A stretch of 20,392 nt of DNA from a virus: positions 1 through 20,392 of IMG/VR virus record IMGVR_UViG_3300042486_000368; one strand, 5' to 3'. Below are positions 14,941 to 20,292 of this stretch, in pieces (position 1 is the stretch's first letter; each line of letters opens with the position of its first letter). The notes below the pieces were generated by a model that was not told where the DNA came from, did not search any database, and saw only the letters and a list, made by a program, of their open reading frames with translations. The translations under genes and the position numbers were made by a program.

Positions 14941-16827
14941 TCAATCTTCGGCGGCTTCCTGCTCGGTCTCGCGGCCAAGGATTTTAAGCATGAAGGCAAA
15001 CACCGTCGCCATCGCCTCGCAGTCGAGAAGGTGGTTCGGCCGTTTCTGGATCCGCGACCATTGCCACTTGTCGCCGTCCTTGATCCGCATCTCGGATTCC
15101 ATCTGGCTCAGGTACGCGATCTTCTTTTCGTCGTTGTCGACCTCGGCGAGAGCCTCGACCGGCACCTCCCATGTCGGGCCTCGGCTTGGATCTTGATTGC
15201 GGCGGATCCGCGAGAGGGCGTCTTTGATGTTGAGGTTCGACCAGTAGAACATCTGGGCGACTTTGCCTGCCGAGCAGTTGATCGAGCGCTTCGGAGAATA
15301 GAATCGGTCGAGTGACTTGACCCGGACGCCGACGCCGAGGCGTTGCTTTAGTCGGTGAGTCCATGTGGCCTTCCTGTCACCCATCAAGGCGACCCAGCCA
15401 TGCTCGGCGCAGCGTTGGTAGACCTCGTAGGAGTTGAATCCGGCATCGACGCCGACGAGCGAGGATGAAACGCGGTACTTTTCCTGCTGTTCGAGCAACT
15501 CTTCCCAGGTGTGGGCTGTTCCCCAGTCGATCCGGCGGCTGGATCCATCAGGACTCCACTGCGTGATCAGCCACCAGAAGTGATCCATTTGAACATCCAC
15601 CGTCATCACGCGCAGCCGAACCGGCGGATCGTCATCCTCATCCGGCACCCGGATTTTGCCACCGATGATCGCGCCTTCCTTTTCCCAGGCTAAATCGCCG
15701 CGCGCGTAGGTGCTGTCGGTGATCTTGATCGAGAAATCCTCGGTGTATTCGGTGAACGGAAGAGCGAGACGCTTCTGCCAGAAGATTTTCAACTGCTCCA
15801 TGTCGCCGGTGCGTGCCGATGACTTCGCTCGAAGGTAAATCTCGGCGAGGTTGCCCCATGATCCCGCGCAGAGGCCATTCCAATGGAAGCCGACATTCGA
15901 CTTCGCTGCTCCGGGGTTCTGGGAGACATAACGCGCGCCGTTCATAGGGTTGTTGAGCTCACGCCGTGATCGGTCGGTATCGGGAAAGCGGGTGCCACAC
16001 TCGCAGAACATTTCGGTGGTCTCGCGGACCCGCTCGTAATCCCACGCGCCATCTTCGAGGCGGCAATCCTTCGACCATTCGATGTTTTCCCATTTCCATG
16101 GCTGCGTCGTCTTGCAGCTCGGGCATCGCCAGCACCATTCACGCTGGTCGGTCGATCGAAATTTCCGATCGGTGTCGTCGTCGACCTCACCGGCCTGCGA
16201 CACGAAGAACCTTTTTCCCAGCCACCCGAAGGCGGTGACCCGCGCCTCGGCCTCGGCCATGTGACCGGATGGCCAGCGCCATGTCTCATCGCCGATCAAC
16301 CAGCGGATCGATCTCCTTTGAAGGTTGGTCTTGGAGTGAGCACCGAGCACCCAGCCAGTCATGCCGTTGAGAAATGCGACCGAGTTGCGCTTGAGCTTGT
16401 GCCTTTCGGTCCCTTGCTGGCGCGGGAGGATTTCCCGAATCGGCGCGCATTGCTTCCAGAGCACCTGCAAGCGGTTTTCCATCTGATCTTTGGCGTCTGA
16501 GTCTGTCTGGTCGAGCCAGAGCATCGGTCCGGGCGCATTCGCCGCGATCCAGCAGGATCCAAGCTCGGCGGTCATGGTTTTGCCCGCCTGAATTGCCGCG
16601 ATGATCGAAACCAGCGAAACCGACGGATCTGCCAGCGCCTCCAATGGTTCGCGGATCCATGGTGTGTTGCCTGATTGGAACCCACCGGGTATCGGCGAGT
16701 ACGGAATCGACTCGATGTGATCCTCGCACCACTGCCACGGCGGGCGGCGGTCGGTGATCACATGGCCGGCCCGCAGGATGTTATCGAGCAGGTCGGTCGT
16801 CGGATTTTTTTCGTCCTCTGGTTTCAA
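14941..16827 (-). CDS. Terminase large subunit (GpA family), 628 aa
   Basis: This is the ATP-driven packaging motor and nuclease that cuts concatemeric phage DNA. Walker A-like AAIQAGKT lies at 77-84 and Walker B IRWLIGDE at 174-181, with the catalytic carboxylate E181. A zinc-ribbon-like set (C232, C235, C238, then C275 and C277) follows the ATPase domain, a feature of the GpA family. The nuclease half includes VMTVDVQ (D411) and LVGVDAGF (D461). The start appears to be TTG at 16827, overlapping the small-terminase gene by 47 bases; no ATG or GTG fits better because an in-frame stop lies just upstream. The lambda-like family suggests cos-type packaging, but no cos site could be identified in the window. 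Confidence 0.92.
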   Translation of the reverse strand: MKPEDEKNPTTDLLDNILRAGHVITDRRPPWQWCEDHIESIPYSPIPGGFQSGNTPWIREPLEALADPSVSLVSIIAAIQAGKTMTAELGSCWIAANAPGPMLWLDQTDSDAKDQMENRLQVLWKQCAPIREILPRQQGTERHKLKRNSVAFLNGMTGWVLGAHSKTNLQRRSIRWLIGDETWRWPSGHMAEAEARVTAFGWLGKRFFVSQAGEVDDDTDRKFRSTDQREWCWRCPSCKTTQPWKWENIEWSKDCRLEDGAWDYERVRETTEMFCECGTRFPDTDRSRRELNNPMNGARYVSQNPGAAKSNVGFHWNGLCAGSWGNLAEIYLRAKSSARTGDMEQLKIFWQKRLALPFTEYTEDFSIKITDSTYARGDLAWEKEGAIIGGKIRVPDEDDDPPVRLRVMTVDVQMDHFWWLITQWSPDGSSRRIDWGTAHTWEELLEQQEKYRVSSSLVGVDAGFNSYEVYQRCAEHGWVALMGDRKATWTHRLKQRLGVGVRVKSLDRFYSPKRSINCSAGKVAQMFYWSNLNIKDALSRIRRNQDPSRGPTWEVPVEALAEVDNDEKKIAYLSQMESEMRIKDGDKWQWSRIQKRPNHLLDCEAMATVFAFMLKILGRETEQEAAED

Positions 16828-17458
16828 GTTTTGGGATCTGCTTTTGCTCGCCGGAATTCATGATCGCGATGTACTCGTCGACCACTCGGGCATTTTCTTT
16901 ACGGATGTCGACCGCATCTCTGCCGACCAGCAGCGGCGGCAATTCGTTTTCGAGCTTGTTCCGAAGCAGGGCGTTTGCCTGTCCGATGTGATAGAACCAG
17001 CGCTCACGCACCGCGTCGATCGGGACGAACTGCCCCTTGCGAACCAGCACCTTGAGCTCGCGGTCCTCGACCTCGGCGAAGAGTTTCCGCAGGCGAAGCT
17101 CGGCCTCGTCGGGCGTTTCGGATTGCCCTTTGGCCGCGAGCCCCTCGGCCTTGATGAAGGCCACCCACTTGAGGACATCATGGGTTCCGTTCGACCTCGG
17201 CTTCGGCGATCCCGGCTTCTTCTTCCAAACATCGACGGTCTGGCGAGCAACTCCCAAAACCTCGGCGAGCTCGACCCAGCTTTTCGCGGTCTTTTTGATC
17301 TCGGTGACATCCTCGATCGGCTTGTCGGCTTTGGCTTTGTAGTCCTCGATCTGCGACCAGTCATCGCGTGAAAGCGTCTTGCCCTCCTTGAGCTTTTTGA
17401 GGATGTTGGCCACATTCGCTTTGCGGATGCGGCTGTACTGTTCAGAGTTGATGTCCAT
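16781..17458 (-). CDS. Terminase small subunit (Nu1-like), 225 aa
   Basis: The small subunit recognises phage DNA and loads the motor. It directly precedes the large subunit and overlaps it. A helix-turn-helix lies at residues 58-80 (KSWVELAEVLGVARQTVDVW), followed by a lysine/proline wing (KKKPGSPKPRSNGTHDVLKW) that resembles the winged helix of lambda Nu1. Residues 118-175 form a long helical region (ELRLRKLFAEVEDRELKVLV), the usual oligomerisation part and binding surface for the large subunit. The C-terminus is basic (LETRGRKKSDDRPAR). The start ATG follows a 52-base gap containing two TTGAC elements (17464 and 17485) and no clear -10 box; this gap could hold a promoter or binding site. 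Confidence 0.85.
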   Translation of the reverse strand: MDINSEQYSRIRKANVANILKKLKEGKTLSRDDWSQIEDYKAKADKPIEDVTEIKKTAKSWVELAEVLGVARQTVDVWKKKPGSPKPRSNGTHDVLKWVAFIKAEGLAAKGQSETPDEAELRLRKLFAEVEDRELKVLVRKGQFVPIDAVRERWFYHIGQANALLRNKLENELPPLLVGRDAVDIRKENARVVDEYIAIMNSGEQKQIPKLETRGRKKSDDRPAR

Positions 17459-17510: not shown

Positions 17511-18266
17511 TCAATGTAGGTCCGCAAAGCCGCGCCCTCGGACCCCTCCCTTAAAAGATTCCTTATGGTCTTTTGAGTAGTGTTCAGCGAGCTCATCTAT
17601 CCATGTCCGGTGGAAATCAAAAACCTGTTGGTCGTTCCAGATTGCGAACTGCTCGACATTATCGGAGGACCGGAGGTTGGCTGATCCAGCGATCACAAAG
17701 TAGTCAGGATCCTGTGCAATCAGAATCACTTTGGTGTGGTTCCGTGTGATGGTTGGCGGATGCCCCAGTATCTGACAGACTCGGGCGAATGTGCTCTCGG
17801 CATCAACGCTGGCGAAATAGTGCGAGACCATGATTTTGAGATCTTGAATCAGTCCCTTAGCTTTTAATTCAGCGAGCATCTTGGCATTCCCTTCACTCAT
17901 GCCGAGCGTGGTGATTTGAACTAAGCTGGCCGGTTTGCCTCTGAGGATGACCGGGATCATATCACCTGCCACAAAATTACCGCGCACGACTGCGTGTGTG
18001 GTGTCTCCGGTCTCTGGAAGGTAGGCGAGAACCTGTTTGGCATTCTCTGGCTTGATGTACCTTTTGACTCCTCTTCTTTTGCTTTTGTCTTTTGCCTCTG
18101 CTTCGTGAAATTGTTGGTGGAAGTGGTTTTTCTTTAATGGGAAGAGCCCTGGGGGCGGTTCCTTTGATTCGATTTCGCTAAATTCTAAATCTTCAATGTC
18201 TTCGAGTCCCAGATTTGTGTCGAGGACCGAAAGGTCAAAGTCGCCTGGGGATTCGATTTTCATCAT
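17511..18266 (-). CDS. PLD-superfamily nuclease-like protein, 251 aa
   Basis: A single HKD-type active site is visible near the C-terminus: NHTK (H177, K179) and, after an acidic spacer, AGSANLRSSDN (S195, N197), the pattern HxK...D...GS.N. Proteins with one such motif act as dimers, as nucleases or phospholipases. The middle contains a fold-like section (LVQITTLGMSEGNAKMLAEL, KIMVSHYF). The first 70 residues are low-complexity, acidic then basic. The frame opens at 18305, but ATG 18266, overlapping the methyltransferase stop as ATGA, is the likely start. The gene lies between a DNA methyltransferase and the terminase, so a DNA-processing, packaging or restriction-like role is more plausible than lipid hydrolysis. 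From memory, similar proteins occur beside phage terminases. Confidence 0.75.
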   Translation of the reverse strand: MMKIESPGDFDLSVLDTNLGLEDIEDLEFSEIESKEPPPGLFPLKKNHFHQQFHEAEAKDKSKRRGVKRYIKPENAKQVLAYLPETGDTTHAVVRGNFVAGDMIPVILRGKPASLVQITTLGMSEGNAKMLAELKAKGLIQDLKIMVSHYFASVDAESTFARVCQILGHPPTITRNHTKVILIAQDPDYFVIAGSANLRSSDNVEQFAIWNDQQVFDFHRTWIDELAEHYSKDHKESFKGGVRGRGFADLH

Positions 18267-19552
18267 GCGAGGCGCTTGGGTTCTTTGCCGGTGGCGTCGG
18301 CCCACCGTTGGATCGCCACGGCCACATATCCTGGGTTTAGCTCAATCGCGCGGCATTTGCGGCCAAGCTGCTCGCAGGCGATGATGGTGGTTCCGCTGCC
18401 CGAGAAGGGCTCATACACAAATTCGCTGTCGTGGTTGCGGATTGGGCGAGCCATGCACTCGACTGGCTTTTGGGTACTGTGGCCGGTTTCTGATTTTGTC
18501 GGCTTGGGGATTTCCCAGAGAGTGCTCTTGTCTCCACGAATGGCGTAGACTCGTTTTGCTTGGTCTTTTGCAATAAAAACCAGTTCGTCTGGTCGCGTGA
18601 CATCTTGGATGTTTTTGAATAGCGTTGTCTGGGTTCGGTCCTCAGTGAACTTGGCGTTTTGTCCTTTTCTCACCGCATACCAGCACGGCTCATGTTGATG
18701 GTGGTAGTTTCCGCGCGAAATAAGCAAACTCCCTTTTGCCCAGATAATAAGATTTCTTAACACGAAATCCGAAGCAATAAGGCTGTCAGCAACGGTGGGG
18801 GAAAATGATCCTGCGTGCCAAATGTAGGCGACGGCTCCGGGGAATAAATCCCAGGCCGGCTGCCAATCCGCCCGGTCATCGTTTAAGACTTTTCCAATAG
18901 CACCCGCTCCCTTCCCGGCTTCCTCACGCCAGTTGGCATCATACTCAACGCCGTATGGCGGGTCGGTGACCATGAGGTGCGGCTTGTCACCGTTGAGAAG
19001 AGTTTGGACTGTTTTTTTATCTGTGGAGTCACCGCAAATAATACGGTGGTCTCCAAGTTCCCAAAGTTGGCCGATCTCGATCCCCCACTTAGCACAAAGT
19101 TCCTCCGCGAGGTCGATTTTGGGCTCGGCATCGACGGGGGTTTTTTCTTCAGCTTCGATGTTCAAGTTGGCAAAGTCTTCAGCGCTAAAACCTATTTCTG
19201 AAATATCCATTCCGAGGGATCCAAGCTCCGATAGTTCGAGCTTCAGCATTTCCTCATCCCACCCGCCGCCGATCTCGGCGAGGCGGTTGTCGGCGAGGAT
19301 GTAGGCTCGGCGCTGGGTGTCGGTGAGGTGACCGAGGCGGATGCAAGGGACGGTTTCGAGAGAAAGCGATTGCGCTGCCATCACTCGCCCATGACCGGCG
19401 ATGATGCCGTTGTCCTTGTCGATCAAGACGGGGTTGTTGAATCCGAACTCGCGGATTGAACCGGCGATCTTGGAGACCTGCGCAGCGTCGTGCTTCTTGG
19501 CATTCCGCGCGTAGGGGATCAATTTGTTGGTTGGGATTTGCTCGATTTTCAT
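18263..19552 (-). CDS. ParB-domain / beta-class DNA methyltransferase fusion, 429 aa
   Basis: Residues 1-95 form a ParB N-terminal (ParBc/sulfiredoxin-like) domain: IPTNKLIPYARNAKKH, then GIIAGHGRVMAA (49-60) and LADNRLAEIGGGWDEE. Residues about 165-429 are an N4/N6 DNA methyltransferase, with TDPPYGVEYD (D197-Y200), HSTQKPVE (358-365) and EPFSGSGTTI (381-390, SAM-binding). The order DPPY, TQKP, then FSGSGTT is that of the beta class. It would methylate adenine-N6 or cytosine-N4; the target is unknown. Phages use such enzymes to evade restriction or alter expression. The start ATG overlaps the preceding stop as ATGA and has GGAGAG before it, the best ribosome site in the window. The middle of the gene is AT-rich while both ends are GC-rich. 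Confidence 0.9.
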   Translation of the reverse strand: MKIEQIPTNKLIPYARNAKKHDAAQVSKIAGSIREFGFNNPVLIDKDNGIIAGHGRVMAAQSLSLETVPCIRLGHLTDTQRRAYILADNRLAEIGGGWDEEMLKLELSELGSLGMDISEIGFSAEDFANLNIEAEEKTPVDAEPKIDLAEELCAKWGIEIGQLWELGDHRIICGDSTDKKTVQTLLNGDKPHLMVTDPPYGVEYDANWREEAGKGAGAIGKVLNDDRADWQPAWDLFPGAVAYIWHAGSFSPTVADSLIASDFVLRNLIIWAKGSLLISRGNYHHQHEPCWYAVRKGQNAKFTEDRTQTTLFKNIQDVTRPDELVFIAKDQAKRVYAIRGDKSTLWEIPKPTKSETGHSTQKPVECMARPIRNHDSEFVYEPFSGSGTTIIACEQLGRKCRAIELNPGYVAVAIQRWADATGKEPKRLA

Positions 19553-20292
19553 ATCTCTCCGATTTTGTAAGTGTCGCGGATTTTCTTGATGTCTTCGTCG
19601 TACTCATTGGCCACGACATAGTTTTGGCCAGTGGCGATCTTCTGTCCCACATAGGCGTGAAACTCCACAACCGGCAGCAGGTCTTTGTGCAGCGAGTAAA
19701 GCATCTCCTCGTCGACCTCATCGAACCATCCAGCATCTTCGAGGGAGCGGCGGAACACACAGAGCCGGTTCACATGCGGAATGGCGTTGTCGATACCTCC
19801 GCCGGTCGGCTTCTCCATGTCCTCCTTGGTAGCCACGCGGCCGAGCTTGATGGACTTGCGTAGCATGTCGCCGCTCATCTCCTTCTTGGCCGCTGTCTCT
19901 AGCCACATCGATTGGTCGTCAGGGTTTTTGAGTGATGCGACTGCCCGGTGATGGTCAAACGACAGGCGCTCTTTGCGGATGGTGAGTGGCACATTCTTGG
20001 CGACGAGGGCGACACGCATCAGCGTGCTCACCTCCAACCTCGTGAGGTTGCTGGCGCGAACATAGTCGAATGATCCCGTGGTGGATTTTACCCAGTTGAT
20101 GGCATCACCGATGATCCATGTGGATGATTCCCGCATCTTGGCGGCTTTGACGAGGATGTCCTCGATCTCGACCATATCGGGCGCCTCATCGCCGAAGACC
20201 AGTCCGGTCGGAGTTGCGGTGATGCGCGGTGTTTCAAATCCCGGTAGCGATGGATTGCTGCGGGCGACTTCGGTGATGATTTCAGTGTCCAT
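19549..20292 (-). CDS. ParB-HTH-like protein of unknown function, 247 aa
   Basis: I do not recognise a named family. Residues about 75-150 have the pattern of a ParB/KorB-type helix-turn-helix: LTRLEVSTLMRVALVAKNVP, followed by RKERLSFDHHRAVASLKNPD, then WLETAAKKEMSGDMLRKSIK. The form LSF.HH..VA.L......WL..A...... resembles a helical module in phage and plasmid ParB-like proteins. The N-terminus is acidic, and the C-terminal 80 residues contain an aromatic and acidic segment (DAGWFDEVDEEMLYSLHKDL). The ATG at 20292 overlaps the end of an upstream frame by 11 bases. It is translationally coupled to the ParB-domain methyltransferase, so the two may act together in DNA binding. Function is unproven. 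Confidence 0.6.
   Translation of the reverse strand: MDTEIITEVARSNPSLPGFETPRITATPTGLVFGDEAPDMVEIEDILVKAAKMRESSTWIIGDAINWVKSTTGSFDYVRASNLTRLEVSTLMRVALVAKNVPLTIRKERLSFDHHRAVASLKNPDDQSMWLETAAKKEMSGDMLRKSIKLGRVATKEDMEKPTGGGIDNAIPHVNRLCVFRRSLEDAGWFDEVDEEMLYSLHKDLLPVVEFHAYVGQKIATGQNYVVANEYDEDIKKIRDTYKIGEI

Follow-up and report, generated by a model that had tools for sequence, protein, structure and literature searches.

The locus described here is probably a ParB-Tls locus that serves as an exchangeable slot for DNA modification, set between a constant helix-turn-helix (HTH) gene and the cos/TerS region; we put the probability of this reading at about 0.7. It lies in a 20,392-nt stretch of viral DNA (IMG/VR record IMGVR_UViG_3300042486_000368, hereafter the window), which probably belongs to a temperate phage of the cos type, with the locus at the right end of its genome. 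Since enzymes are swapped on a constant ParB_N domain and a PLD-superfamily nuclease gene is added or dropped, the arrangement looks like a quick-change slot rather than a fixed three-gene machine. It looks like a means of escaping bacterial defences, in a phage of Verrucomicrobia-type bacteria. The natural series of enzyme swaps on one ParB_N and the overlap between the candidate cos and the PLD gene are new.

The comparison covered 18 locus-spanning contigs (the window and 17 others), most of them fragments, some of which may represent one population. The HTH gene was present in all 18, ParB_N in 6, an intact PLD gene in 6, both ParB_N and PLD in 3, and neither in 9; TerS and TerL were near-identical in most. 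Judged by this presence and absence, the HTH, ParB_N-methyltransferase and PLD genes are not one three-gene unit, and a fixed unit was rejected. Only part of the predicted modification and cutting unit stands, namely a modification gene with a ParB_N domain beside packaging genes. For one relative with HTH and PLD genes, L002, the genome is closed (38.3 kb, ends overlapping by 123 bp); it carries an integrase (phrog_1), and no PF01555 methyltransferase match was found in it.

The ParB_N-methyltransferase gene (18263..19552, minus strand, as are all features of the window below) encodes a 429-aa protein. The ParB_N domain occupies residues 1-121 (~19190-19552) and the N6/N4 DNA methyltransferase domain residues 192-414 (~18311-18979). 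Pfam returned N6_N4_Mtase (2.9e-20) and ParB_N (7.2e-5, 23.2 bits, just below the cut-off of 26.3), and PHROGs gave phrog_498, 'DNA methyltransferase' (1.7e-128); the original prediction of this fusion was therefore borne out, with ParB_N as a sub-cut-off match. ParB_N (aa 1-121) was 90-94% identical in all five relatives carrying it. The methyltransferase part was only 23-40% identical in L006, L007 and L012. At the DNA level, identity among ParB_N carriers exceeded 80% and then fell to mostly 30-65% past about codon 110-120. Four dissimilar N6/N4 methyltransferase parts are joined to this constant domain, and in L028 ParB_N stands alone, followed by a separate Mom gene (PF25680, 5e-46). ParB_N is thus a constant platform on which the attached enzyme, a methyltransferase or a separate Mom, is replaced within the population.

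Both gene junctions (HTH/methyltransferase and methyltransferase/PLD) are ATGA overlaps, as had been claimed. The 11-bp sequence ATGAAAATCGA occurs twice in the window (0.01 copies expected), once where the ParB_N-methyltransferase gene begins, which is the cassette boundary (19542..19552), and once where the PLD gene begins (18253..18263), so that the two copies form a direct repeat around the methyltransferase gene. Among related contigs it is present at every cassette start and missing from empty loci. In L002 and L004 the methyltransferase is precisely absent between the two 11-bp positions. A palindrome common to the window and the empty loci was also sought; it occurs in the empty loci only.

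The PLD gene (17511..18266) encodes 251 aa from the ATG at 18264-18266, which overlaps the methyltransferase stop codon; the longest open reading frame opens at GTG (264 aa), and the start in most relatives is the second ATG. PHROGs gave phrog_16945, 'endonuclease' (6.2e-12). No PLD match was found in Pfam, nor any relevant match in a sequence search of solved structures. The single H-K-N-E active site that had been predicted was recovered (aa 177-205, ~17652-17738). Indeed, H177, K179, S195, N197 and E205 were invariant in 34/34 aligned sequences, comprising those of the window and L006 plus 32 from a set of 44 open reading frames, themselves extracted from 80 listed of 111 relatives; the 12 excluded included L116 and L127, where the motif pattern failed. 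The predicted model contained one confident domain, the catalytic fold (whole-protein model), with best matches to Nuc (1byr, Z 13.8) and NucT (6ehi, Z 13.7). The N-terminal ~70 aa were of low confidence, and no separate DNA-recognition domain was predicted, aa 1-71 having been modelled as part of the whole only. Single motif and Nuc fold together point to a PLD nuclease of the Nuc/NucT type. Such enzymes are metal-independent, non-specific nucleases. Among the six intact copies, with or without a methyltransferase, dN/dS was 0.06-0.32, which indicates purifying selection on the PLD gene even in genomes without a methyltransferase.

Downstream of the PLD gene lie TerS (16781..17458, phrog_57, 2.8e-8) and TerL (14941..16827), a large subunit of the lambda GpA type (Pfam GpA_ATPase 1e-31, GpA_nuclease 9e-17). 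The original prediction had the terminase following; both subunits are indeed there, but a candidate cos (17513..17539) intervenes, TerS being the first gene beyond it. The conserved block before TerS looks like a cos site, as judged from its conservation in the compared contigs except L013-L015 (with one change in L006) and from shared contig ends. Four contigs from four metagenomes end exactly at the base where the top strand is predicted to be cut, between 17533 and 17532 (GAGGGCG^CGGCTTTGCGGACC), 74 bp before TerS. Beside its GpA-type TerL the genome would then have a fixed end upstream of TerS, at a position derived from contig ends. One of the four carries 19 extra joined nucleotides, which match the Illumina P5 adapter. 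Other contigs end close by at different bases (L033, L037, L042, L046, L049), and among seven contigs checked none ended at cos on the right-end side. Because four contigs end at one base, the terminase would cut within the last codons of PLD, leaving its final six codons and its stop codon on the far side of the candidate cut. PLD is an optional module, independent of the methyltransferase, whose reading frame crosses the candidate cos.

The HTH gene (19549..20292) was found in the window and in 17 of 27 related records, the remaining 10 of which start or stop past it; two alleles, ~46% identical, occur among relatives. Its 247-aa product is a predicted DNA-binding protein, with a ParB/Noc-type HTH at aa 53-152 (~19837-20136). 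Pfam HTH_ParB scored 5.9e-5 (23.6 bits, cut-off 22.6), and the assignment gains strength from the predicted fold, for which the 12 top-ranked VIA rows were all ParB/Noc/Spo0J chains (Z 9.6-11.4, about aa 53-152), with a Foldseek E of only 0.045. The identification of this protein as a ParB HTH part was thereby upheld from both Pfam and the predicted fold. A sequence search of solved structures returned no relevant match. The protein also matched the LmbU family (5.2e-17, 62.3 bits); membership was rejected at the NCBIfam cut-off of 125.

The same HTH protein had been proposed as one half of a ParB fold split over two coupled genes. On that reading it would give the ParB_N-methyltransferase its site recognition in trans. 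Both halves are ParB-type domains and adjacent in the window, and L017 and L018 contain both, at separate places. Yet the HTH gene stands without an adjoining ParB_N in 12/18 contigs, and relatives of the ParB_N-methyltransferase are encoded in 488 phage records against 0 for the HTH protein. On these grounds a split ParB was rejected as very unlikely. The HTH protein most likely acts as a site-specific regulator and not as the missing half of the methyltransferase protein. L002 encodes a further ParB-like protein (L140:7580-8542, phrog_4715, 1.8e-10), which might serve the HTH as a partner in trans.

A restriction-modification-like pair, in which PLD would cut DNA left unmarked by the fused methyltransferase, was also considered conceivable in the original prediction. 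The two genes are adjacent and overlapping, a methyltransferase lies directly upstream of PLD in six divergent loci, and PLD-type restriction enzymes are fold relatives (BfiI, Z 10.1; NgoAVII R-protein, Z 11.3). However, fold searches rank Nuc and NucT highest, confidence in the model is limited to the catalytic fold, and the methyltransferases that accompany PLD are of at least two dissimilar kinds (one in window/L005, another in L006). Moreover, three of the six genomes with intact PLD, the closed L002 among them, have no methyltransferase at the locus, and PLD remains under purifying selection there. The pair is therefore highly improbable, and was rejected. Alternatively, PLD could be a free-standing homing or exclusion nuclease that cuts the empty site of PLD-less relatives, is copied in and helps cassettes move. 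It would fit this that one site is occupied in some phages and empty in others that are otherwise near-identical, that the junction is precise, and that L007 and L028 retain PLD scars (the last 26 codons). Against it, the Nuc/NucT relatives are non-specific, we know of no PLD homing enzyme, and the methyltransferase cassette turns over equally without a nuclease of its own; we consider it quite unlikely.

The possible link to packaging fared better. The order methyltransferase-PLD-terminase is retained in divergent Verrucomicrobiota (pro)phages (L062-L066, L137), which argues that the link is real, and elsewhere PLD lies among the terminase genes (TerS-PLD-TerL in L138, PLD-TerS-TerL in L067). 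In 50 of the 75 loci L062-L136, surveyed for TerL by PF05876 or PF03237, PLD was found ~0.6-1.9 kb upstream of TerL on the same strand in 11; no TerL of either family was recognised in the other 39. The outcome named beforehand as refuting the original prediction, genes unlinked in most relatives, is true of the close relatives and untrue of the nearest divergent PLD clade. In the six divergent loci methyltransferase and PLD stay neighbours, which hints at a function in common that is not accounted for by their independence in the close relatives. In Arthrobacter phage Vulpecula, PLD adjoins TerS alone; as a parallel to the HTH, methyltransferase and PLD genes it was rejected, its genes 42 and 43 being unrelated to the HTH and ParB_N parts. 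It is possible, if doubtful, that PLD is a packaging nuclease helping the terminase at cos or trimming concatemers. This role is favoured by its place beside or between TerS and TerL (L067, L138, beside TerS in Vulpecula) and by its 3' end running into the candidate cos, and comparable positions are taken by HNH packaging endonucleases, according to the available part of PMC12724721. However, intact PLD is missing from 12/18 contigs, among them several (L011, L012) whose TerS/TerL share 98-100% identity with those of the window, whereas the HNH counterparts occurred in all genomes analysed in that study. Our tentative view is that PLD serves during packaging as an auxiliary nuclease that processes DNA, and not as the restriction partner of the methyltransferase.

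In the preferred reading of an exchangeable slot, ParB_N would bring the modifying enzyme to phage DNA, and the modification would shield the phage from host restriction, so that different enzymes would be favoured in different hosts. Cassettes may be gained and lost when recombination takes place between the 11-bp start that they share and the flank conserved at cos. A bolder form, which we regard as rather unlikely, makes the locus a cos-anchored socket with ParB_N as a universal adaptor for various DNA-modification chemistries, plus a packaging-interrupted PLD gene. Methyltransferases or Mom would be plugged onto ParB_N by recombination at the common 11-bp start, and the terminase would interrupt the PLD gene at each packaging event; its stop codon would then exist only in circular or concatemeric DNA. 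If true, PLD expression would depend on successful circularisation. A likely cos within a nuclease reading frame is an unusual anatomy, which bears on the timing of gene expression. So far there has apparently been no natural comparison with which to examine the proposal that ParB-like domains guide DNA-modifying enzymes to phage DNA during packaging. Since near-identical phages here differ in the enzyme on the same ParB_N, or have none, roles become testable by difference, and those of ParB_N, modification and PLD nuclease could be separated.

The likeness of the 247-aa protein to LmbU regulators (5e-17) is offset by its sub-cut-off score and by its being a phage gene. PLD shares with Nuc and NucT the fold and the single catalytic motif, but it is encoded in the packaging region of a phage and has an N-terminal stretch of ~70 aa modelled at low confidence. 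With BfiI (2c1l) it shares the catalytic fold and PLD active site, but it has neither a predicted separate recognition domain nor an obligate methyltransferase. Like the HNH packaging endonucleases, whose genes adjoin the terminase (available part of PMC12724721), PLD adjoins packaging genes in the window, L062-L067, L137 and L138; unlike them it is another type of nuclease and dispensable in close relatives (intact in 6/18). A literature search on PLD together with the terminase small subunit found no paper, and one that combined phage ParB, methyltransferase, terminase and phospholipase D gave two, both unrelated to judge by their titles. Bacillus cereus has a fusion of a ParB domain with an adenine methylase, and its ParB domain is reported to nick, as far as the accessible text of PMC5512222 goes; the fusion here is predicted from sequence, and is distinguished by the downstream PLD and the cos context. 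Finally, the arrangement agrees with the ParB-Tls locus published by Iyer et al. (2013), in which, according to the portion of PMC6536676 available, DNA-modification genes, often fused to ParB, precede terminase genes, and ParB is proposed to direct modification during packaging. Here too a ParB-like domain lies in or beside the modification gene (ParB_N with N6_N4_Mtase, or with Mom in L028), and the slot is upstream of TerS and TerL, also in divergent loci. It differs in that the slot adjoins a candidate cos, that an optional PLD, unmentioned in that portion of the ParB-Tls description, is inserted, and that one constant ParB_N is combined with different methyltransferases or Mom in near-identical phages.

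On the minus strand of the 20,392-base window, genes for a 247-aa protein (19549-20292), a 429-aa protein (18263-19552) and a 251-aa protein (17511-18266) are followed by TerS (16781-17458) and a GpA-type TerL (14941-16827). A ParB-type helix-turn-helix (HTH) was detected in the 247-aa protein barely above the Pfam cut-off (HTH_ParB, 5.9e-5). Its predicted structure (mean pLDDT 76, 8 sequences) aligns with chains of Noc, ParB and Spo0J over residues ~53-152; all 12 best rows (Z 9.6-11.4) are of this kind, and Foldseek by itself gave an E of 0.045. The Pfam and fold matches bear out the originally predicted ParB-type HTH in this protein. It also resembles LmbU regulators, with a score under the curated cut-off. 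The 429-aa protein was confirmed as ParB_N, a little below the Pfam cut-off, fused to an N6_N4 methyltransferase (phrog_498, 1.7e-128). The 251-aa protein is a PLD nuclease, as expected from its active site. In its model (mean pLDDT 74) the core is mostly above 90, and residues 38-71 and 240-251 fall below 50. The closest folds are Nuc (Z 13.8) and NucT (Z 13.7); BfiI scores Z 10.1. The motif pattern was present in 42 of 44 extracted ORFs (L116 and L127, lacking it, were left outside the alignment), and H177, K179, S195, N197 and E205 are invariant in all 34 aligned rows.

Scans with the HTH, PLD and TerS proteins yielded 27 related records, each then searched with every part. The HTH gene and the span to TerS are present in 17, the remaining 10 starting or stopping past the HTH gene; no record reaching that side of the locus lacks it. 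Among the 18 locus-spanning contigs (the window and these 17), ParB_N occurs in six (window, L005, L006, L007, L012, L028) and intact PLD in six (window, L002-L006). Both are found together in three (window, L005, L006), against two expected under independence, and neither in nine (L009, L011, L013, L014, L015, L029, L032, L040, L041). L007 and L028 retain about the last 26 PLD codons only. Thus, the three genes do not form a unit in close relatives. The idea of a ParB split over two genes is likewise unsupported, with HTH in 18/18 contigs versus ParB_N in 6/18.

Contigs L013-L015 carry a TerS merely 47% identical and 4.2-5.0 kb of other DNA. This unrelated DNA lies between the HTH gene and the divergent TerS (L013:5203-10231) and includes a repeat region of low complexity as well as an ORF of 269 aa on the minus strand. 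In L028 (512-1060) and L041 (4522-5070), a 182-aa HTH-like gene immediately precedes and overlaps the 247-aa-type gene. A similar pair recurs in the distant locus L017 (5034-5504); therefore the HTH gene may belong to an upstream operon with the HTH-like gene rather than to the cassette. L019 (5893-6885) combines an HTH domain resembling the one in the 247-aa protein with a methyltransferase-like part, presumably of MT-A70 type, in a single fusion; an apparent helicase-methyltransferase fusion in L016 is preceded upstream by a comparable HTH gene.

L002 is a complete genome (123-bp end overlap) encoding an integrase (phrog_1) and both HTH and PLD; no match to PF02195 or PF01555 was found in it. 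This closed genome also encodes a separate ParB-like protein fused to DUF4326 (L140:7580-8542), which might serve the HTH protein as its ParB partner. Over 235 codons, dN/dS values among the six PLD copies (methyltransferase present in three, absent in three) were 0.06-0.32, so PLD is kept without a methylase partner. This maintenance is the main evidence against the restriction-modification pair of the original prediction, which is not supported.

Behind ParB_N, the sequence is exchanged. All five relatives carrying ParB_N share 90-94% identity with the window over residues 1-121. Over residues 122-400, L005 is 96% identical, and L006, L007 and L012 are 23%, 35% and 40% identical. Beyond codon ~110-120, DNA identity falls from >80% to mostly 30-65%; in L012 it recovers over the last codons. 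In L028, a ParB_N ORF of 160 aa overlaps the gene for a 240-aa Mom protein (L028:2237-2959; PF25680, 5e-46), which stands in place of the methyltransferase part. The partner of the constant ParB_N is thus either Mom or one of four dissimilar methyltransferase parts (window/L005, L006, L007, L012). Both the methyltransferase and PLD genes of the window open with the 11-mer ATGAAAATCGA, a sequence expected there 0.01 times and present in 2 copies. It was found in 22 of 142 loci, all cassette-bearing copies of this locus and at cassette starts, and was absent from the empty loci among the 142. In L002 and L004, which have no methyltransferase, the HTH stop joins the PLD start directly with the overlap unchanged, a junction that recombination between two ATGAAAATCGA copies would produce.

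The candidate cos (17513-17539, minus strand) is a block, GAGGGCGCGGCTTTGCGGACC, immediately before TerS, kept in contigs both with and without cassettes; it is changed in L013-L015 and carries a single change in L006. Among 21 contigs found to carry its TerS side, three (L044, L057 and L039) have an end precisely at CGGCTTT; in L045, 19 nt matching the Illumina P5 adapter are joined at this point, as might result from adapter ligation to a natural DNA end. These ends may instead be an assembly effect, as L037, L046, L049, L033 and L042 stop nearby at differing bases; no matching right end was found among the contigs scanned. If the block is cos, the cut would fall within PLD codon 245, placing six further codons and the stop on the other genome end; the PLD tail beyond it is predicted with low confidence. 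A palindrome, AAGGAGTCTCCTT, lies 32 nt ahead of the candidate cut in the cassette-less loci L032, L041 and L029 and was not found in the PLD-bearing loci compared; it is a possible binding site.

The PLD-alignment scan returned 111 relatives, of which the 80 listed were used. Among these, L062-L065 have a ParB_N-methyltransferase directly upstream of PLD, 27-30% identical to that of the window (the two ORFs overlap in L062), and L066 has a PF01555 methyltransferase ~0.8 kb upstream; GpA TerL lies downstream in all five. A genome search gave three relatives among 13 candidate stretches. In L137 (Verrucomicrobiaceae MAG), a methyltransferase overlaps PLD, followed by a 355-aa ORF and a TerL-like ORF; L138 (Verrucomicrobia MAG) has the order TerS-PLD-TerL, with TerS identified by phrog_57; L139 comes from a Phycisphaerae MAG. 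Of 50 records searched for TerL, nine matched PF05876 and two PF03237, neither being seen in the other 39; each of the 11 matching records has PLD on the same strand, ~0.6-1.9 kb upstream of TerL. PLD relatives also adjoin TerS in Arthrobacter phage Vulpecula and the portal gene in Bacteroides phage BT-TP2. From these relatives, the host group of the window phage is probably Verrucomicrobiota. The proposed link to packaging is sound, the methyltransferase and PLD genes lying beside terminase in divergent loci too.

Altogether, a modification slot located at the end of the genome is the best-supported reading; PLD would be an independent accessory nuclease belonging to the packaging neighbourhood, although a methyltransferase-PLD neighbourhood conserved in six divergent loci speaks against full independence. 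No account of PLD with terminase, or of Mom with ParB and terminase, in this arrangement was found in the mostly open-access literature searched. A ParB-methylase with nicking activity is cited in PMC5512222. The arrangement in the window agrees with the ParB-Tls locus of Iyer and colleagues, as related in PMC6536676.
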